A stretch of DNA of 22,846 nt, from positions 1-22,846 of IMG/VR virus record IMGVR_UViG_3300046804_004325. One strand, given 5' to 3'. The notes under the pieces were generated by a model, which saw only the letters and a list, made by a program, of their open reading frames with translations, was not told where the DNA came from and did no database searches. The stretch comes from a virus. Positions 12,725 to 22,346 of this stretch are shown in pieces (the first letter of the stretch is position 1; the number at the start of each line of letters is the position of its first letter). The translations under genes were made by a program, and so were the position numbers.

Positions 12725-13045
12725 TCAAATAACCCTACGACCTGTATGGTTAAGTGCAGGATTGTGAATCGCGATCAATTCGCGTTCCATGGCATGGGCT
12801 GCTGCCTTGCCCCGCACCACAGCATAGATGCCATAACTATGGGCTATGGTACCATACTTGACAATGCTGTTGCACAAAGCCCAGCCCTTGTCTTCGTTGA
12901 AGGCACGCCAGACATGCTTTTGAATTCTGACTCTGAGGTCCTTCTTGCTGCGACCTGCAGTAATGCCCACATAGCGTGCACCAGTAACATTGTTAATGAT
13001 GACATATACTATGTGGCATCGATCTGAACGCTTTTTTCTTATCAT
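12725..13045 (-). CDS. GIY-YIG nuclease family protein (106 aa)
   Basis: The core of a GIY-YIG nuclease: HIVYVIINNVTGARYVGIT (11-29), in which VYV and YVG stand for the two signature tripeptides, then a basic helix KKDLRVRIQKHVW and, near the end, AMERELIAIHNPALNHTG, which supplies the expected Glu and an Asn-rich tail. The length fits a stand-alone domain. A free-standing homing endonuclease or small nuclease is likely. The start ATG lies at the expected transcription start of the promoter 13052-13079 and has its GGAGG only one base away, so translation from this promoter may be leaderless. Confidence 0.85.
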   Translation of the reverse strand: MIRKKRSDRCHIVYVIINNVTGARYVGITAGRSKKDLRVRIQKHVWRAFNEDKGWALCNSIVKYGTIAHSYGIYAVVRGKAAAHAMERELIAIHNPALNHTGRRVI

Positions 13046-13226: not shown

Positions 13227-14195
13227 TTCGTCGTTGCGACGAGCGTGGGGATGCTCGGGTCGTGGCCCGGCTTTGTTGAACACCCGATCCAGTATCTCGG
13301 GCGGGATGTGGTGTACATCCTTCTTGTGAATCTTGACCTCTTCAGGGTCTACTGTGTCCTGCACTTCTTCATACTGGAATACTGCGGGCGTGGTTTCTGG
13401 CACAGCCGTGGTTTCGGCAACCACCACAGCCTGTTGCATTACGCGCTCGCGAGCCAGCAGACTCATGTTGCCAGCTATGACCAGCAGAATGGCCAAGGGA
13501 TCGAATACAAAGATCAGACTCATAATGATGAGTCGCACTGCCTTGCCTATCATGTCTTCGGTGCTGGAGCCGTAGATCAGCTCAGCCACATACTTGATGG
13601 GTCCTACTTCAGCTTCAATTTTCCGTACATCTTGCGCGAGAGGCGCACGCTCCTCATTAAGGCGGCCAATTGTTGTCTGGTAGGTTTGTATTTCCGTCTG
13701 AAGGCGATCACGCTCTTTCTGTTGTGAGCGCCGAATACTAACTGCCCTTTCCGCACCTTTTTCTGTGTCACTGCGGCCCATGACCTGATCCACAGCCTCA
13801 TCGAGCTGTTTAAGTGCCTTACGATTACCATCTATGTTCTCCTTGAAAGTCTTTATCTTTTCATCAATGATGGCTAGCTGTCCAGTGCTTTGTCCTGTGA
13901 TGGCCGCCTGATCCAGATGTGCCTTGGATAGGTAACCAAATATGCCCAGACTCGTAATGATGCTAAGAACAACAACTGAGGCAGTAAAATAATAGCGGAG
14001 AATACGAGGAGCGGTAGTCCAATTACGATAAATCCAGCTCGCCGCAACCAATTTAGCAAGTTCAAGGCTTCCTCCCATCAATCCTGTGGCCAAGGGCGCA
14101 CTACTAAAAATACTGATCAGTCCAGCCACGCTAAACCAGGCCGCGCAACCACTGACTGCCAGTGCACTGAGAAATAACAGTCCTATGAATATCAT
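13212..14195 (-). CDS. Coiled-coil inner-membrane protein (327 aa)
   Basis: Residues 1-35 and 37-52 are hydrophobic (IFIGLLFLSALAVSG, then GLMGGSLELAKLVAASW), and a third segment lies at about 70-90 (SVVVLSIITSLGIFGYL). From about 105 to 200 comes a long charged coiled coil (EKIKTFKENIDGNRKALKQL and onward). Another membrane segment follows (AVRLIIMSLIFVFDPLAILLVIAG, about 218-241), then a cytoplasmic tail with Pro- and Glu-rich sequence. The N-terminal pattern with GxLELAKLVxASW and LSKAHxxQ is found in uncharacterised membrane proteins of T4-type phages. The start overlaps the GIY-YIG gene stop as ATGA. A role in holding or signalling at the host membrane is a guess. Confidence 0.8.
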   Translation of the reverse strand: MIFIGLLFLSALAVSGCAAWFSVAGLISIFSSAPLATGLMGGSLELAKLVAASWIYRNWTTAPRILRYYFTASVVVLSIITSLGIFGYLSKAHLDQAAITGQSTGQLAIIDEKIKTFKENIDGNRKALKQLDEAVDQVMGRSDTEKGAERAVSIRRSQQKERDRLQTEIQTYQTTIGRLNEERAPLAQDVRKIEAEVGPIKYVAELIYGSSTEDMIGKAVRLIIMSLIFVFDPLAILLVIAGNMSLLARERVMQQAVVVAETTAVPETTPAVFQYEEVQDTVDPEEVKIHKKDVHHIPPEILDRVFNKAGPRPEHPHARRNDEVPKN

Positions 14196-14587
14196 AATTT
14201 AAGGTGTCGTCTATGAGTTCTTACCATGATCCAATTATTGTAGAATTCTTCGGGTTTGCGCAGCACATCTAAATCGAACTGTATCTTGGCTTCCATGTAG
14301 TTGCATTCACCCTTGCTAGGACACAAGTATAGTATGACTCGGGTAAATTTGTCAATGCCTGACTTTTCGATGTCAGCCTTGAGCTCATCGTTTGAGCCAT
14401 AATAATCCCGCCAGTCTGATTCTGCCAGATAGCGTTTCTTTTTACCCTTGACCTGACGCGTCTTTCGATTCCAAAACAGTTTCTTGCCTATGTAGCGTCG
14501 GCCTGTTTCAGTATTGGTGATGCAGTACACAAACCCATAGTCATTCTCCTTGGGTTCAGTAAACTCAGCATTGTTGTAGATCCACAT
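14192..14587 (-). CDS. GIY-YIG (Seg-like) homing endonuclease family protein
   Basis: 131 residues. The N-terminal NDYGFVYCITNTETGRRYIGKK (15-36) has the GFVY and YIG elements of the GIY-YIG fold, then a basic loop KTRQVKGKKKR, ESDWRDYYGSNDELKADI (about 56-73), and CPSKGECNYMEAKIQFDLDVL with the expected Glu near residue 98, ending YNNWI. The layout 'KESDWxxYxGS...SKGExxYxExK' is common in Seg-like proteins of T4-type phages. It would cut DNA to promote its own spread. A hairpin at 14589-14615 covers part of its ribosome site. It sits between the zinc-ribbon gene and the membrane protein gene. Confidence 0.85.
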   Translation of the reverse strand: MWIYNNAEFTEPKENDYGFVYCITNTETGRRYIGKKLFWNRKTRQVKGKKKRYLAESDWRDYYGSNDELKADIEKSGIDKFTRVILYLCPSKGECNYMEAKIQFDLDVLRKPEEFYNNWIMVRTHRRHLKL

Positions 14588-14588
14588 C

Positions 14589-14615
14589 AGATACTCCTGT
14601 CAATAAAGAGTATCT
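14589..14615 (-). promoter_or_regulatory. Hairpin overlapping the ribosome site of the Seg-like gene
   Basis: An 8-base perfect inverted repeat (14589-14596 with 14608-14615) with an 11-base loop lies between the zinc-ribbon stop and the ATG at 14587. The Shine-Dalgarno AGGAG (14598-14594 on the minus strand) is partly inside the stem, three of its five bases being paired. Such sequestration would lower translation from read-through transcripts. Confidence 0.65.
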
Positions 14616-14622
14616 ATCAGAG

Positions 14623-14784
14623 TTATTCTTCGTCTTCGTCTTCCTGGTCGAAGCTTTCCTCTTCCTCTAGGTCAGACGCACAGAAAGGACACACCGTAAG
14701 TTGATAATAATTGCTGTCCAGATCGTGTATGATTTTGAATACTGCGTCGCAGCTATAACACTCTATGTGCTTTTTATTCCCCAT
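14623..14784 (-). CDS. Small zinc-ribbon protein with acidic tail (53 aa)
   Basis: ATG 14784 lies 11 bases inside the end of the dCMP deaminase gene. The sequence starts MGNKKHIECYSCDAVFKI and has CPFC in the second half, giving two CxxC pairs at 9/12 and 32/35, a zinc-ribbon layout. The tail is nearly all Glu and Asp. 'ECYSCxAxxxIxHDxDxxYY...CxFC' proteins are common in T4-type phages. The likely role is nucleic-acid or protein binding; its partner is unknown. Confidence 0.75.
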   Translation of the reverse strand: MGNKKHIECYSCDAVFKIIHDLDSNYYQLTVCPFCASDLEEEESFDQEDEDEE

Positions 14785-15241: not shown

Positions 15242-15404
15242 TGATTTTTCCCCATCTGGGAGGGTCCAGTGGACACTCCTGGTCTTTAAAACTAGTCTTG
15301 GCTGGCATGAAGCAACCACAGACTGCGCACTGTTTAATCATGCTGCGATAATGTTCGCAGCCACGACATATCTCCATGCGATCCTTGGCATACTGAGTAA
15401 ACAT
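15189..15404 (-). CDS. Small cysteine-rich zinc protein (71 aa)
   Basis: ATG 15404 overlaps the stop of the 4,6-dehydratase gene as TAATG. Starts MFTQYAKDRMEICRGCEHYR with CxxC at 13/16, then CAVCGC (26, 29, 31), C44 and a CC at 66/67. The 'AxxRxxICxxCxxY...QCxxCGCxM' pattern fits a family of small zinc proteins seen in T4-type phages and bacteria (DUF6171-like). Function unknown. It links the sugar operon to dCMP deaminase. Confidence 0.75.
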   Translation of the reverse strand: MFTQYAKDRMEICRGCEHYRSMIKQCAVCGCFMPAKTSFKDQECPLDPPRWGKIIESKYTPSTPGCCGKVR

Positions 15405-16351
15405 TACCAGACAAAATTATGCTGATAGTAATCGACTATGCCTGGCAATTCATCTTTGAAGATGCGCTTGGGTTGCCAGCCCAGAGCCTTGAGTTTAAGA
15501 TCATTGATGCTGTAACGAACATCGCCGCCGGCGCGCTGATAATCAAAATCCAGATGTGCCTCGTAGTCAGTGTTGATGAACATCTGGTCTATGATCTGAT
15601 GTACTACTTCCAGATTGCTGGTTTCATGATTGCCGCTGATGTTGTAGATTTCGTTGACCACACCAGCCTGAATAATATGCAGTATGGCGTCAGCTGTATC
15701 TTCAACATGAAGCCAGGTACGACGTGGAGTACCATTCATGTGCAGAGGCACCTGACGACCCAGGCTTAGATATTTAACTGCCTTGGGTATGAGCTTCTCA
15801 GTATACTGGCCTATGCCATAGTTGTTGGTGGGACGTACTATAATCCAGGGCACATTGTAGGTGCGAGCCCAGGCACTGATCAGCATGTCGGCAGCTGCCT
15901 TGGTGGCACTGTAGGGGTTGCTGGGTTTTAACAGCTGAGTTTCAGTAAAACTACCTGAGTCGATGTCGCCATAGACTTCGTCGGTACTGAAATGCAGCAG
16001 CACTGGTTTTTCGCCAGTATAGTTGCGCAGCAGTTCCAGCAGATTATGCACACCGTCTACGTTGCTGTGTACAAAGTCTGCACTCTTTTCTATGCTGTTG
16101 TCTACATGAGTTTCTGCAGCTGTGTTGATGATGTAGTCACAGTACAGAATCTTCTTCATGTCATTGATGTCGATCTGTTCAAATCTAAATCTATCATAGC
16201 TCTGTAGCTTGGGCAGCAGATTCCAGTTGGCAGCATAGGTGCCTTTGTCCACACCATACACATACCAACCAGCATCCAGACATCGCTTGGCTACGTGATA
16301 GCCAATAAAACCCAGACAGCCAGTTACATAGACAACCTTGATGTTACTCAT
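15404..16351 (-). CDS. NDP-glucose 4,6-dehydratase (RmlB/RfbG-like)
   Basis: An extended SDR enzyme that oxidises and dehydrates an NDP-hexose to the 4-keto-6-deoxy sugar with bound NAD. The Rossmann motif TGCLGFIG spans 10-17, the catalytic triad elements are TDEVYGD (T123, D124, E125) and YSATK (Y147, K151), and further family marks are AAETHVDNS, RPTNNYG, RRTWLHVED and the C-terminal RAGGDVRY. The D-E pair after Thr is diagnostic for 4,6-dehydratases rather than epimerases. 315 residues is a little short of RmlB (about 350). It would start the pathway although it is last in the block. Sugar nucleotide (dTDP or CDP) cannot be read from sequence. Confidence 0.9.
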   Translation of the reverse strand: MSNIKVVYVTGCLGFIGYHVAKRCLDAGWYVYGVDKGTYAANWNLLPKLQSYDRFRFEQIDINDMKKILYCDYIINTAAETHVDNSIEKSADFVHSNVDGVHNLLELLRNYTGEKPVLLHFSTDEVYGDIDSGSFTETQLLKPSNPYSATKAAADMLISAWARTYNVPWIIVRPTNNYGIGQYTEKLIPKAVKYLSLGRQVPLHMNGTPRRTWLHVEDTADAILHIIQAGVVNEIYNISGNHETSNLEVVHQIIDQMFINTDYEAHLDFDYQRAGGDVRYSINDLKLKALGWQPKRIFKDELPGIVDYYQHNFVW

Positions 16352-17154
16352 TAATATTTCTCCACGCTGCGTTGCAATCCAATAAGGTCTGGTATCAGGC
16401 TGGCCAGACGACCACCATTGCCAGTATAATTTAGTGGGCTGGTGCTGTCTATGGTAAAGCTATCATAGCTTAGTCCACGCACATCACACACCAGTCGAAT
16501 CATGTCTGATAATTTTATCTTCTGCATGTATACACAGTTGATGTCACGCTGCCAGATTGGTATATACTTGGCATTGCTAACATGTTTAACCACAGTATAT
16601 AGATCGTCAATGCCAAAGAAATCAAAGTAACGATCATTGATGATTCGAAACTGGGCATCACTGTTCAGGAATCTGGCGATCAATCTGCTGGGTTGTTCGC
16701 CAGTACCAAAACAGTTAAAGATTCTCAGATGGTAAAAGTTTTCGCGCTCCACACAGAGTCGACCCTTGAGGTTCTGACCGAATCCATAGCTGTCAGCTGG
16801 CCAGCAACGAAACAGTTCGGTCTCTTCCACCATGTCGATGTTGCGACTACGATCAAATTCTGCACCACTGCCAGTATCAATGAACTTACCAAACATATGT
16901 GAGTTATGATAAAAGTTCATGAAGACGCCCAGATTGTTGTGGGCATCGGCTACATTGCTGCTGGATGTCATGACAGCTGCAGCGTTGATGATAAGATCTG
17001 GGCGATTGGTATCTAACCAGTGCTTGACCACCAGAGGGTTCAGCAGATCTATGACATCACGAGTCAGGCCAACAACGCTGTGACCTTCACGTTTAAATCT
17101 TTCGGCCAGATTGCGACCAACAAATCCACGACTGCCTAATACTGCTATCTTCAT
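16351..17154 (-). CDS. NAD(P)-dependent sugar epimerase/reductase-like SDR
   Basis: 267 residues with the Rossmann motif GSRGFVG (7-13), IINAAAV (55-61), TGSGAEFD (94-101) and YGFGQNLKGR (123-132). The length and RIFNCFGTGEQPSR segment suggest a reductase or epimerase of the GDP-fucose synthetase or dTDP-4-dehydrorhamnose reductase type. The usual YxxxK has Gln at the Lys place (Q127), with the first Lys at 130, so catalysis may differ. ATGA overlap with the methyltransferase. It likely reduces or epimerises a keto sugar made by its neighbours; direction and substrate are inference. Confidence 0.8.
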   Translation of the reverse strand: MKIAVLGSRGFVGRNLAERFKREGHSVVGLTRDVIDLLNPLVVKHWLDTNRPDLIINAAAVMTSSSNVADAHNNLGVFMNFYHNSHMFGKFIDTGSGAEFDRSRNIDMVEETELFRCWPADSYGFGQNLKGRLCVERENFYHLRIFNCFGTGEQPSRLIARFLNSDAQFRIINDRYFDFFGIDDLYTVVKHVSNAKYIPIWQRDINCVYMQKIKLSDMIRLVCDVRGLSYDSFTIDSTSPLNYTGNGGRLASLIPDLIGLQRSVEKY

Positions 17155-18050
17155 GTTTTAATTCCTACTACGGCGAACGCTGGAGAAAAGGATTCATATA
17201 CAGTATCGTATCTTAAATCAAAAACGTTCAATGGTTGTATTCCGTGTCGGCGTAACAATGCTTTGAGACTTTCAGAATGAAAAATGTTGATGTGTTCATG
17301 CATCTGCATTATTGCATTTCCCTGAGAATTTTTTTTGACATATTCTATTTCATTGGGTACTTCAATATAAAGTAATCCATTGGGGCGCAGATACTGCAGC
17401 ATGTCTTTTACTAGGTCGCTGGGATAACTTACATGTTCCAGAGTATGGCAACACATTACTAAATCTACTGGATCGCAGTCTGCAGGACTTTGTACCGCAG
17501 TTACACCATCGACAAATTCACGGTCTTCTATTTCCGCAACATAACGTCTACAGTTTATAAACTCATCGGGTATATATTGTCCCAGATCTCCGCCATAGTC
17601 CAGCACAGATGTTATATCAGCAACATTGACATAATCTGTAATACTACGAATCACTGCCTCTTTTCTAATCTGAAAGTATTCTGGCATCTGATATGCCTGA
17701 GCTAATTTAAACCATTCTTTGCCCTCATTGCGCAAACGATGAAAAACATATCTCCCATACTGTCTACCCACCTTGTTGTCTATCTGCATGTAATCTTCAT
17801 AGTATCTCTGCATCTGTTCATCAGTAAATCTAAACACAGTAGCAATATAGAAACAATCCTGACATTGTATGGCTTCAGTTTCCCAATCATCAAGCTGCAC
17901 TCTGTCCAACATTCGTTCTATGACAAAATTAGCCATGATGACTTTTGTTTTTTTAGTATTGTGACTACCACAGCAGGTACAGTCGTAGATCTGCGGTATA
18001 GATTTAACTTGATTAAAAACTTTTTCGCTAAAGAGTGTTGGTTTTGTCAT
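17151..18050 (-). CDS. Sugar C-methyltransferase-like protein with Zn site
   Basis: 299 residues. The N-terminus carries CTCCGSH (C24, C27) and CQDC (C63, C66), a four-cysteine zinc site as in NDP-hexose C-methyltransferases. A Rossmann-type SAM region follows: VLDYGGDLGQYI (149-160), then VMCCHTLEHVSYPSDLVKDM with the LEH motif and LRPNGLLYIEVP. The C-terminal segment HEHINIFHSESLKALLRRHG is typical of class I methyltransferases of the Methyltransf_23 type. It probably methylates the keto sugar at a ring carbon. Base composition is AT-richer than its neighbours, hinting at separate acquisition. ATGA overlaps on both sides. Confidence 0.8.
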   Translation of the reverse strand: MTKPTLFSEKVFNQVKSIPQIYDCTCCGSHNTKKTKVIMANFVIERMLDRVQLDDWETEAIQCQDCFYIATVFRFTDEQMQRYYEDYMQIDNKVGRQYGRYVFHRLRNEGKEWFKLAQAYQMPEYFQIRKEAVIRSITDYVNVADITSVLDYGGDLGQYIPDEFINCRRYVAEIEDREFVDGVTAVQSPADCDPVDLVMCCHTLEHVSYPSDLVKDMLQYLRPNGLLYIEVPNEIEYVKKNSQGNAIMQMHEHINIFHSESLKALLRRHGIQPLNVFDLRYDTVYESFSPAFAVVGIKT

Positions 18051-19822
18051 ATCTTAACAAGCATTTCTCGTTCTAGTTCTTCTGGTGTCAGAAATGGTGC
18101 CATTTCATGCAGTCCACCCTGACGCCCGTCGGGCTTGATGGCCTGTGCTGGTAATACATCCAGAGTATTCTGACTCATAAACTCCACAATCGCTGGATAC
18201 TTTCTGCGCATCAGACTAGGCATGAATTGATCCAGTTGTTCGTTGCTTTCTACTTTGAAGTATGCCAGGTCAAAGGCCGCAGCTACCTTGGATAAATCGG
18301 CAAAATATACTCCGGTGCTGTTGCTGACACCCCAGCGGCGTCCGCCAAAAAATTTATCCTGTGTCTGCTTGATGCTCATGTAGCCATCGTTGTTGATGAC
18401 AAAAATCTTTACTGGTATGTTGTATTGTCTAATCACAGCCAGCTCCTGCATGTTGGTGTAGAAGCTGCCCTCGCCTATGACTATGATGATGTTCAGATCT
18501 GGATTGGCAAAATGCGCTCCCACGCTGGCTGGCAAAGCATAGCCCATGTCGCCCTGAGCTGCCTGTGCCATGTAGCGGCAATCAGGTTTATACTTGCCAT
18601 TGGTGCTCAGAATATAACAGGGCTGGCCAGCGTCCACAATGAAGCAGTCTCGCGGTTGCATGTTGCGATTCATACTCTCTACTATCTCATAGAGATTAAG
18701 ACCGCCAGCATCGGGTCTGTGAACCTCGGCATTGTAGATGGGCCAAAGCTCTTTCCAGTGCAGGCACTGCTGACTCCAGGCTGTGGCCTTGTAGCGTTTA
18801 GGATAGGTCTTGACTATATCAAAGAACTCTTTAACATCACCTACTATGGGTAAATCTACTTTGAAGATGTCTTTACCCAGCTCATTGGCATCAATGTCAA
18901 TCATGATCTTCTTGCTGGCTGGACTAAACGTAGCAGCATCATAACCAATGTGTGTGACATTCATGGAACAACCCAGTATGATCAGACAGTCTGCGTTCTG
19001 CAGAGCAAAATTGGCGCAGCGATTACCTTTGATGCCCATCATGCCCAGATTCTGAGGATGCTCATATTCAATCAGATCACGACTCAGGAATGTTGTGACA
19101 AAGGGTATCTGATGTGCATCAACAAAGTCTCGTAGTTGCTGACGAGATCGAGCCAGATTGATGCCATTGCCTGCTACAATTACTGGTCGTTCAGATTTGT
19201 TTATAAGATCTATGGCAACATGAAATGCCTTGTAGTTGGCGCTCTGAGATTCTGCTGGCGGTATAAACTGCTGATAGGCCACAGGAATTTCTGCAGACTG
19301 TAGATTACCTGGAATATCTATCCATACTGGACCAGGACGACCCTGTTGTGCGATCCAGATGGCTCGTTCCAGCTCATAGGGTACGCGCTCAGCCTTTTCA
19401 ATGGCTACTGAGTACTTGGTTAAATGTTCTACTGTGCGATGTGCATCTAAATCCTGTATACCATACTTTCTGATGTTGATGTTCTTGGCACGATTGATAT
19501 ACTTGGCCTGGTTAGCCATGGCAGTGTTGCCGCTGATGAACAACACTGGTGCGCTTTCTTCCCAGGCATTCAGCAGACTGGTCATGGCATTGGTTACGCC
19601 ACAGCCCGCGGTAACGTTGCAGACACTCAGAGTGTTGGTGGTGCGAGCCGCGCCCACGGCGGCATGGCCTGCACCCTGCTCGTGATGAAAGGCGATAAAC
19701 TCTATGCCATCATGACTAATAAACCCATCATTGAGTCCAGCTGTGCTGCCACCCACCAGACCATAGACCTGGCGTATGCCTAGTTCATGCAGACGATGTG
19801 CAATATAATCACAGACGCGCAT
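18047..19822 (-). CDS. Thiamine-diphosphate enzyme, acetolactate synthase superfamily
   Basis: 591 residues with all three domains: PYR with the catalytic Glu at E48 (AFHHEQGAGHAA), a middle domain (RPVIVAGNGINLARS), and PP with GEGS (450-453) and NND (477-479) in place of the usual GDGS...NN. Such enzymes decarboxylate pyruvate or another 2-oxo acid and add the acyl unit to an acceptor. In sugar clusters with RfbH the known example is YerE, which adds a two-carbon unit to CDP-3,6-dideoxy-4-keto-glucose. Other relatives include IolD, which opens a cyclohexanedione ring. The Glu for Asp in the Mg motif is odd. Start ATG 19822 has AAGGAA upstream. Confidence 0.88.
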   Translation of the reverse strand: MRVCDYIAHRLHELGIRQVYGLVGGSTAGLNDGFISHDGIEFIAFHHEQGAGHAAVGAARTTNTLSVCNVTAGCGVTNAMTSLLNAWEESAPVLFISGNTAMANQAKYINRAKNINIRKYGIQDLDAHRTVEHLTKYSVAIEKAERVPYELERAIWIAQQGRPGPVWIDIPGNLQSAEIPVAYQQFIPPAESQSANYKAFHVAIDLINKSERPVIVAGNGINLARSRQQLRDFVDAHQIPFVTTFLSRDLIEYEHPQNLGMMGIKGNRCANFALQNADCLIILGCSMNVTHIGYDAATFSPASKKIMIDIDANELGKDIFKVDLPIVGDVKEFFDIVKTYPKRYKATAWSQQCLHWKELWPIYNAEVHRPDAGGLNLYEIVESMNRNMQPRDCFIVDAGQPCYILSTNGKYKPDCRYMAQAAQGDMGYALPASVGAHFANPDLNIIIVIGEGSFYTNMQELAVIRQYNIPVKIFVINNDGYMSIKQTQDKFFGGRRWGVSNSTGVYFADLSKVAAAFDLAYFKVESNEQLDQFMPSLMRRKYPAIVEFMSQNTLDVLPAQAIKPDGRQGGLHEMAPFLTPEELEREMLVKI

Positions 19823-20843
19823 ATTTTTCCTTGAAATCTTTTAGTAGTTCGGTGAGTTCCAGACCTAGACTAAAGTCATTGACCAGACTGCGTTTCACCA
19901 TTATACCAGTAACTGGCATGATGATGTTCACCAGGCCAGAAGTATTCTTTTTGTCATGGTTCATGGCTTTAAGTACTGCATCGATGTTGATGTCAATGTG
20001 CAGATGATTTGAATACAGATGACTCAGTATACCATGATAGCGTTCAAAGTTATTTTCATTGTGCATTTTGTCGCTCAGCAGATTGGCAATATCCATGCCC
20101 ATGGCCACGGCTATACCATGTGGCACTGCATAGTTAGTGGCACTTTCTATGGCGTGTCCAAAGCAATGCCCATAGTTTAGCAGATTTCTGATGCTGGTGT
20201 CAAATTCATCGAGCTCAATATATCTGCGCTTGATCATTAACGCGTCATGCAGAGCATTGTCCAGATCCTGCAGATTTTGTTCGATGAGTTCGGGACCATA
20301 ACCTGCAATGATCATGAGCTTGACAATCTCGGCCATGCCACTGCGTAGGTCTGCCTGACTCAGTGTGGTCAGGAAGTCACGATTGATCACCACCTGGCCA
20401 GGCGGATAAAAGGTTCCCAGCAGATTTTTATACTCACCAAAATTGATGCTGCTCTTGCTGCCTATGCAGCTATCAGCCTGAGCCAGCAGAGTAGTGGGAA
20501 CAAAGACCCAGTCAATGCCCCGCATATAAGTGCTGGCTATCCAACAGCCTATGTCCTGTGTAACGCCACCGCCAATGACCACCAGTCGGCTATCACGACG
20601 CAGTTGTTTACTGACCAGAGTCTGAATAATCCAGACTATGTTCTCATACTTCTTGCTGTTCTCTGTGGCGTCAATCACCACCATGTTGGGCAGCACACCA
20701 CCCAGATGTTCTGTGACATTGGCATCTACTATGAAGTGTGTACCCAGTGCAGCATAGCTGGCCAACCGCATATCAGAATTAAAGTCCACACGATAGGCTC
20801 CATTACGAGCTCGCTGACTCTCAACGTGAAAATGTTCAAGCAC
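19809..20843 (-). CDS. 3-dehydroquinate-synthase-like sugar phosphate cyclase
   Basis: 344 residues from GTG 20843, chosen because GGAGGA lies seven bases upstream; the frame is open to a TTG at 20867 inside the SDR gene. Motifs: GGGVTQD, then RGIDWVFVPTTLLAQADSCI, KSSINFGEYKNLLGTFYPP, and the metal ligands E172 (GMAEIVK), H226 (NYGHCFGH) and H242 (PHGIAVAMG), with DKKNTSG later. The fold is that of AroB and of cyclases that make inosose or valiolone from sugar phosphates. In a phage sugar block a shikimate role is unlikely; a cyclitol or other carbocycle is the inference. Substrate unresolved. Confidence 0.88.
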   Translation of the reverse strand: MLEHFHVESQRARNGAYRVDFNSDMRLASYAALGTHFIVDANVTEHLGGVLPNMVVIDATENSKKYENIVWIIQTLVSKQLRRDSRLVVIGGGVTQDIGCWIASTYMRGIDWVFVPTTLLAQADSCIGSKSSINFGEYKNLLGTFYPPGQVVINRDFLTTLSQADLRSGMAEIVKLMIIAGYGPELIEQNLQDLDNALHDALMIKRRYIELDEFDTSIRNLLNYGHCFGHAIESATNYAVPHGIAVAMGMDIANLLSDKMHNENNFERYHGILSHLYSNHLHIDINIDAVLKAMNHDKKNTSGLVNIIMPVTGIMVKRSLVNDFSLGLELTELLKDFKEKYARL

Positions 20844-21537
20844 TGGTAAATCCTCCGTCAATGACAATGTTTTGTCCTGTAATATATCTACTGTGTACCA
20901 GATTGTAGACGTTGTTGGCTATCTCACGCGGGCTGGCCAGACGACCCATGGGCACACGCTCCATGATCTTTTTAATGCCATCCTCACCCAGATTCTGTCT
21001 GGTTAAATCAGTGTCTACAAATCCTGGACTCACGCAGTTGATGCAGACACCATGCTGGCTAAACTCAGCAGCCAGAGCCTTGGTCATGCCTTCTAAAGCA
21101 AACTTGTTGGCACTGTAGGCTGCTCGACCAGTTTTGCTGATGCGACTCCAGACACTGCCTATGTTGATGATGTGGCCCTGCCCACGCTCCACCATGCCAG
21201 GCAACACAGCCTGACATAGTCTGAAGGGAGCGTAGACATTGACCTGGTGCTGTGCCATCCAGTCCTTGGATGAAATACTTTCAAAGTTTTTTACTATGTT
21301 GATGCCGGCATTGTTGATCAGCACATCGATCTCTAGATCTTTGATGTCTCTGACCAGCAGATCAATGTCCTGCTCATCATGAAAGTCGGCCTGATAGTAT
21401 TCATCCAGATAGGGCTGCAAGGGAATAAACGACGCTGGCATGGTACCTGTACCAACAACGTAGTGATTATACTCATGAAAGTATTGGGCTATGGCCTGCC
21501 CAATACCTCGAGTGGCACCTGTGACCAGAACCTTCAT
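20836..21537 (-). CDS. Short-chain dehydrogenase/reductase (classical SDR)
   Basis: 233 residues of the classical type. TGATRGIG (6-13) binds NAD(P); NNAG is at 75-78, the catalytic Ser near 128 (INIGSVWS), and YSANK supplies Y141 and K145. The closing PGFVDTDLT and GQNIVIDGG complete the family pattern. FabG-like enzymes are the closest by eye, but the setting points to oxidation or reduction of a sugar or cyclitol ketone. It overlaps the aldolase stop (TAATG) and the cyclase start, so the three are probably made together. Confidence 0.88.
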   Translation of the reverse strand: MKVLVTGATRGIGQAIAQYFHEYNHYVVGTGTMPASFIPLQPYLDEYYQADFHDEQDIDLLVRDIKDLEIDVLINNAGINIVKNFESISSKDWMAQHQVNVYAPFRLCQAVLPGMVERGQGHIINIGSVWSRISKTGRAAYSANKFALEGMTKALAAEFSQHGVCINCVSPGFVDTDLTRQNLGEDGIKKIMERVPMGRLASPREIANNVYNLVHSRYITGQNIVIDGGFTSA

Positions 21538-22346
21538 TACTGACCCGACAATACTTTCCAGCGTGCATCCAGCATGCCGATGCGCTTGTCGTCTTCGGTA
21601 AAGATGGCACCATAGTAGTCACGTTTGTTCTGCAACCATAGAAGCTCAAAGTGTACAGCGTTCAGCAGACCCTGTGCAATGCTGGGCACTTCTGCAGCAG
21701 CACCATCGAACACAATTTTACGAGTCTCAAAACGATTTAGATGCACAGCACGAATCTGCTTTAGTACATCCACGCTGTCTGAGCTTACACCGCCACCAAC
21801 AACAATCTCCTGGCCATGATCCTTGGCCAGCTGAGCTACCTGCAAGACACATTCAGTGACTTTGGGCAGATTGATGTCGTCGCGGCCCCAGCCTTCTTCA
21901 TGATGGCTCAGGCTAAAGTCTACACGACCAAATACCACACCTTTGACACCGTCGGCTGTGATGGCTTCCTTCATCATGCCGTCACGATTCTCATAACCAG
22001 TCTTGGTCTCCATGTTGTAGAAGAATTCAGTATCCAGTTGATCGTCGGCACTGAAGATCTTGTTCTTGCTCTGCTTGAACTTCCACAGAGCATAGGGCGT
22101 CTCAATCATAGGACCAATGACATAGTCCACACCAATCTGTTTGGCCACCATGAGGTCGGTCATGGCTTCACAGCCACCGATCTTCAAGGCCATTTTAAGA
22201 TTGGCCTTGCGTGCCAGTTCTACCAGACGCAGTAGTTCGTCTACTCTGGTACCTTCGGCCTCGAATTCTGCTTTGCAGGCCACGTAGCCGAACTCGTCGC
22301 GGCCACGCTTCAATAGATCCAACATTTTTCTTTCTTTGGTATTCAT
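21537..22346 (-). CDS. HpcH/HpaI-type aldolase/citrate lyase family protein
   Basis: 269 residues. The pattern [24 protein letters not shown], then [18 protein letters not shown] (metal-binding Glu near E82), [11 protein letters not shown] (Asp near 143) and GGGVSSD resembles class II HpcH/HpaI aldolases, which cleave or form carbon-carbon bonds with pyruvate or oxaloacetate. Proteins of this kind occur in surface-polysaccharide loci without proven substrates. The 15-base gap before it has AAAGGA. In this operon it may make or use the 2-oxo acid consumed by the ThDP enzyme, or build an acyl side chain; both are inference. Confidence 0.75.

Follow-up and report, generated by a model that had tools for sequence, protein, structure and literature searches.

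Inhibitory hairpins over the ribosome-binding site have been reviewed for the T4 genes e, soc, 49, I-TevI, I-TevII, I-TevIII and segB and for Aeh1 mobE (PMC2988022, PMC3014915). That late RNA loses the 5' arm has been documented in the cases of e and I-TevI; for the others it was inferred (PMC2988022, PMC3014915); the late RNA of e misses the 5' part and is translated well (PMC3014915). T4 late promoters have TATAAATA at -13 to -6, the first base of which is loosely conserved among relatives (PMC1524935). Descriptions of timed silencing through a hairpin that carries a promoter have been limited to a small number of T4 genes and a few homing nucleases. The lists of reviewed genes do not contain segE (PMC2988022, PMC3014915), and the literature searched yielded neither a report of a ribosome-site hairpin for the SegE family nor a published transcriptome of a cultured relative showing timing.

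Here we analyzed a leader of this kind before a SegE-type nuclease gene in a 22,846-nucleotide stretch of viral DNA (IMG/VR record IMGVR_UViG_3300046804_004325; hereafter the window). As in the window, the leader of I-TevI, the T4 td intron endonuclease, serves a GIY-YIG nuclease and forms, on early and middle transcripts, a hairpin that covers the ribosome site (PMC2988022). Its late promoter is placed so that late RNA misses the 5' arm (PMC2988022), an arrangement that we propose for the window as well. Unlike I-TevI, the window nuclease is not intronic and lacks a DNA-binding domain, and its candidate promoter 8-mer is GATAGATA. T4 segB and Aeromonas phage Aeh1 mobE are, like the window gene, free-standing phage nuclease genes with a ribosome-site hairpin; they also have a late promoter (PMC2988022, PMC3014915), for which the window has a candidate, but they are other nuclease genes at other sites, and their products are demonstrated active endonucleases (PMC2988022, Table 1). 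T4 e, soc and 49 share the inhibitory structure over the ribosome site but are not SegE-family nucleases. T4 segE itself is a PF19835 member like the window gene and has the late-promoter-like TATAAATA upstream; it differs in its length of 205 aa, with an extra C-terminal part, and no ribosome-site hairpin was found in its leader (L203). The mechanism is already known; what is new is how widely it occurs in the SegE family, that it alternates there with start/stop overlap, and the variant GATAGATA.

The nuclease and its surroundings

The gene and its upstream neighbor lie on the minus strand of the window:
14192..14587, minus: SegE-type GIY-YIG nuclease gene (PF19835), 131 aa, ATG at 14587-14585
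14623..14784, minus: upstream gene for an acidic protein of 53 aa carrying a zinc-ribbon-like CPFC motif; stop codon 35 nt upstream of the nuclease ATG

A profile search matched residues 2-120 of the nuclease to PF19835 SegE_GIY-YIG (E 5.7e-39), and the protein also matched phrog_447. The usual GIY-YIG active-site residues (Y21, Y32-I-G, E99 and N117) were invariant among 30 relatives. The initial annotation had called the product a Seg-like nuclease, and the PF19835 match specifies it as SegE-like. The AlphaFold2 model was confident (pLDDT 95.5), and its best match among solved folds was the I-TevI catalytic domain (Z 8.8, rmsd 2.5, 84 residues); the pdb fold search listed I-TevI and not phage endonuclease II, an absence that is no evidence. 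A sequence-only search against solved structures revealed no significant homology, and a nucleotide-level search of cultured phages returned short or unannotated matches only. The label 'NAD synthetase', attached to phrog_447 in PHROGs and to many phage and cyanophage records, found no support, as fold and profile are those of a GIY-YIG nuclease.

The nuclease domain fills the 131-aa chain, and the C-terminal 11 residues are too short for a separate DNA-recognition domain. Longer homologues exist, including T4 SegE at 205 aa and those of Bp7 and leE at 271 and 359 aa. Because the window protein has no room for a DNA-binding domain, the label of homing nuclease is not justified and homing is unproven.

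Several further features were observed around the gene. A second, distinct GIY-YIG protein (PF01541, 106 aa) is encoded at 12725-13045 on the minus strand, roughly 1.1 kb downstream from the SegE-type gene; the related contigs G001 and G003 have a short GIY-YIG match at a comparable downstream distance, and in G002 one follows directly downstream. A sigma-70-like promoter inside the nuclease gene (14355-14326, minus; TTGACA, 18 nt, TATACT; 11/12) faces the downstream gene and can be likened to the promoters reported to be embedded in T4 seg genes (PMC2988022). Upstream, positions 15404-22346 of the minus strand hold a run of sugar and small-molecule genes, encoding NAD-dependent epimerases, a thiamine-pyrophosphate enzyme, a dehydroquinate-synthase-like protein, a short-chain dehydrogenase and a methyltransferase.

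The hairpin over the ribosome site

On the minus strand the upstream TAA stop is followed by CTCTGATAGATACTCTTTATTGACAGGAGTATCTGATG, and the leader from that stop to the nuclease start reads TAA CTCTGATAGATACTCTTTATTGACAGGAGTATCTG ATG. The following elements were located in it:
14588..14616, minus: RNA hairpin over the ribosome site (5' arm 14616-14606, loop 14605-14599, 3' arm 14598-14588)
14615-14608 with 14596-14589, minus: 8-bp Watson-Crick core of the hairpin, AGATACTC with GAGTATCT
14594..14598, minus: Shine-Dalgarno AGGAG of the nuclease gene, fully paired in read-through RNA
14611..14618, minus: GATAGATA, candidate late promoter of putative function, where relatives have NATAAATA
14605, minus: predicted late-RNA start, +1 if GATAGATA spans -13 to -6 as in T4 (PMC1524935); first loop base

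The hairpin at 14588-14616 was confirmed as real. RNAfold gave a stem of 11 pairs including U-G and U-A, formed by TAGATACTCTT (14616-14606) and AGGAGTATCTG (14598-14588) around the loop UAUUGAC, with a stability of about -11.2 kcal/mol, and the nuclease ATG lies directly 3' of it. The initial annotation had described an 8-base perfect stem before the ATG that includes part of AGGAG; the stem was found exactly (14615-14608 with 14596-14589), but all of AGGAG, not a part, is paired within the 11-pair fold. Folding showed that read-through RNA buries the Shine-Dalgarno sequence, with the unpaired probability of AGGAG close to 0 apart from its first base (0.21). When the RNA was folded from the predicted late start at 14605, AGG, the first three bases of AGGAG, was about 0.9 unpaired. 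The cost of opening the start region was 11.6 kcal/mol for read-through RNA versus 6.0 for the predicted late RNA. The hairpin had no match to a known RNA family in Rfam.

How far the hairpin exceeds chance was assessed within the window. Dinucleotide shuffling of the 34-nt leader gave an equally good fold in only 7 of 2000 trials, and the nuclease leader was the most stable among the window's 41 gene-start leaders. Equal stability was reached by 3.1% of all window 34-mers, the window held 10 inverted repeats of 8 bp versus about 5 in shuffles, and the 101-nt fold around the hairpin was not unusual (z = -0.07). Taken alone, the window offers moderate evidence; comparison with relatives makes it strong. 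An inverted repeat arisen by chance, or a structure serving mRNA stability or termination that leaves translation unaffected, would fit a hairpin that is only moderately unusual in the window, and the window alone would not exclude chance. The covariation in relatives described below rules out a chance repeat, and the position of the hairpin relative to the ATG, the missing U-run and the enrichment over other late genes argue against this explanation as a whole, which is largely refuted and which we regard as very improbable. An intrinsic terminator was also rejected since there is no U-run, AUGUGGAUC follows the stem, and the hairpin is absent from the terminator-like sites. Between 14,588 and 18,000 the minus strand showed no terminator-like site, which makes read-through to the nuclease gene plausible.

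Hairpin and promoter core among relatives

From IMG/VR contigs and cultured phages we collected 340 loci encoding relatives, of which 336 had a leader of at least 60 nt and were grouped into 118 clusters at 85% protein identity. The T4-type late-promoter core TA[AG]ATA was present 14-55 nt before the start in 66 of the 118 clusters, with about 10 expected after shuffling. When the segment 3' of the promoter motif was shuffled as the null, 50 of these 66 clusters had a significant hairpin at p<=0.05 and 38 at p<=0.01. Computation further showed that in most hairpin-bearing relatives the late-promoter core overlaps the 5' arm, so that the predicted late RNA lacks that arm; the window has GATAGATA at this place. 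Median opening costs in relatives with a hairpin were 12.4 kcal/mol for read-through RNA and 4.0 kcal/mol for the predicted late RNA. In typical leaders, such as TAAATATCGGGAGGAGGACTCCCGATG (L208) and TAAATAGTTAAGTCTCTTTGAGGATTTAACTATG (L387), pairing takes in the end of the promoter core and also the AUG. Among the 52 SegE clusters that lack the motif, 7 had a hairpin; three of these seven (L211, L416 and L072) carry the near-core variants TAAGTA or TACATA at the corresponding position.

One further set of leaders from marine cyanophages (L289, L298 and L304 among them) pairs AATAGCTCAT with ATGAGTTAT or close variants in a stem that runs into the first codons and is missed by the hairpin test; ten clusters of this type, including L192, were put into the hairpin class by eye. 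Cultured cyanophage examples are the Synechococcus phages S-CREM1, S-SM2, S-SCSM1 and S-SKS1, and other cultured examples are Variovorax phage V45v66, Escherichia phage Bp7 and Cronobacter phage leE.

The controls were non-SegE genes taken from these loci that carry ATAAATA equally far before the start; 14 of 73 (non-redundant) had a hairpin. By the same test the difference from the 50 of 66 SegE clusters gave a Fisher p of 1e-11, a value that serves only as a guide since clusters and controls are partly dependent. Six of the 14 hairpin-bearing controls were themselves GIY-YIG or HNH nucleases (L011, L147, L054, L211, L213 and L218; five called by sequence pattern and L211 by profile, with some further profile support), compared with one nuclease by sequence pattern among the 59 hairpin-less control genes. 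These six, on SegE-bearing or related contigs, share a TAAATA-plus-hairpin leader.

Covariation was analyzed in two groups of relatives with a common register, cut down to their arms with the loops removed, which by design left no gaps in the alignments. Group A1 (7 distinct rows) had 98.4% of cells paired and changes on both sides in 6 of 9 pairs, with a covariation score of 0.667 versus 0.212 for shuffled and at most 0.315 for slid controls. Group A2 (14 rows) had 95.7% of cells paired and both-side changes in 7 of 10 pairs, with a score of 0.732 versus 0.209 shuffled and at most 0.117 slid. Slid controls ranged over 0.02-0.32 across both groups, and all these scores are to be read with the caution that the registers came from predicted folds of the very sequences aligned. 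The outer three pairs were invariant, since they join the promoter core to the start region. This analysis showed that pairing is kept by compensatory changes in both groups. The initial annotation had suggested checking whether pairing is conserved in related phages and had named a lack of compensatory changes among its grounds for refutation; pairing proved to be conserved, and that ground fell away. Covariation across dozens of lineages, with unrelated stems and a fixed promoter core, indicates strong selection against early nuclease.

A small upstream protein with a CPFC or CPYC zinc-ribbon-like motif was encoded in 61 of the 118 clusters, as in the window, and this common neighbor points to the SegE-type nuclease as a probable resident gene. 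A gap followed the upstream gene in 59 of 60 hairpin clusters. In 31 clusters the nuclease start instead overlaps or abuts the upstream stop, an arrangement that suggests translational coupling; 28 of these have the zinc-ribbon neighbor and only 2 have a hairpin. Because these 31 clusters mostly lack the hairpin, tight silencing is not essential for the SegE family. Mapping the hairpin label onto the protein tree required about 22 changes, at least 15 of them forced by well-supported branches, although few alignment columns make these counts rough. On this tree the family thus switched repeatedly between the promoter-bearing hairpin and overlap with the upstream gene. The cost of early expression is testable by comparing hairpin phages with their start/stop-overlap sisters at the same locus.

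The candidate late promoter and the proposed timer

The window and its 17 nearest loci all carry GATAGATA, which is invariant across 11 distinct leaders while the flanks, the loop, the 3' arm and the pairing register vary. Its last six bases form the outer part of the hairpin 5' arm; its first base, unpaired in the window's subgroup, is likewise invariant. Within the window's own clade stem changes are mostly one-sided, and the L003 group has a rearranged stem. GATAGATA is one core base off the late-promoter consensus, and ATAGATA showed no enrichment upstream of other clade genes (1 seen versus 0.9 expected; 0 seen versus 1.8 expected). The closest long relative, G001 (166,912 bp), encodes a nuclease 85% identical to that of the window and a T4-type gp23, and has NATAAATA before gp23 and other genes. 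GATAGATA was on this basis ruled out as the general late promoter of the clade, a role that NATAAATA fills. An enrichment of ATATATA before clade genes was also set aside, as it reflects at least in part sigma-70 type TTGACA-TATAAT promoters.

Because GATAGATA is one core base off and is not enriched before other genes, the late start at 14605 can only be inferred, and applies if T4 geometry holds. The initial annotation had looked for a late start site inside the loop, and the predicted position, the first loop base, agrees with it. The same departure and lack of enrichment elsewhere may mean that the promoter is weak or has been lost in the window's phage. The likeliest reading is that GATAGATA has been kept in place as a late promoter that is weak or in some way special.

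We propose that the leader probably acts as a built-in timer that holds the nuclease off until late infection. Early read-through RNA from the upstream genes would contain both arms and fold, burying AGGAG and the base beside the AUG, so that little nuclease would be made. Late in infection the phage-modified polymerase would start at the promoter overlapping the 5' arm (GATAGATA, 14618-14611; predicted first base 14605). Late transcripts could not form the hairpin because the promoter supplies the 5' arm, and the ribosome site would then be open and nuclease made. On this model GATAGATA would serve as a late promoter, read-through would extend into the gene, and translation would be low at first and rise late in infection. 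The I-TevI-like design and timed expression suggested in the initial annotation gain support from the hidden ribosome site and from the T4-type late-promoter core in the 5' arm of relatives, from which the timing would follow.

The main rival reading accepts that the hairpin represses but takes the late promoter to have decayed in the clade, so that output would always be low or would be raised by ribosomes that terminate upstream and open the stem, a form of distant coupling. The departure of GATAGATA from the core used by the same phages is consistent with decay. Coupling at a distance would be favored by the upstream stop, which lies about 6 nt before the 5' arm, where a terminating ribosome could disturb the stem; it would also fit the direct start/stop overlap in the 31 sister clusters, 28 with the zinc-ribbon gene, and the many switches between states that the tree requires. 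However, decay would not preserve GATAGATA in 11 distinct leaders, unpaired first base included, while the 3' arm and register change, and we consider this reading unlikely. Another possibility is that GATAGATA and the stem form an operator for the nuclease itself or another protein. I-TevI autorepresses through an operator over its own late promoter (PMC2988022), and the conservation of GATAGATA exceeds what pairing alone demands. The window nuclease, however, lacks a DNA-binding domain beyond its nuclease domain, and the family-wide constant is the late-promoter core within unrelated arms, unlike a single operator, which leaves the operator reading with very little probability.

Tentatively, and short of an even chance in our judgment, a late promoter in a start-site hairpin could be a general, repeatedly rebuilt timing module for nucleases in T4-type phages, including short, resident and possibly non-homing SegE-type nucleases; it would alternate with coupling to the zinc-ribbon gene, and the diverged GATAGATA would serve in the window's clade. 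The promoter-plus-hairpin leader provides a sequence signature for finding similarly timed genes.

Similar leaders were also observed before other genes. A lipoate-ligase/LipB-like gene (L186; PF21948, 227 aa) in the 25786 region of G001, minus strand, has a late promoter followed by a hairpin near the start. A late promoter and start hairpin also precede genes for proteins of 384 and 174 aa with no assigned function. Finally, a cyanophage protein starting MKSLSQSEYGELR (L296, L297 and L340) is preceded on several contigs by a late promoter and then a small stable hairpin.
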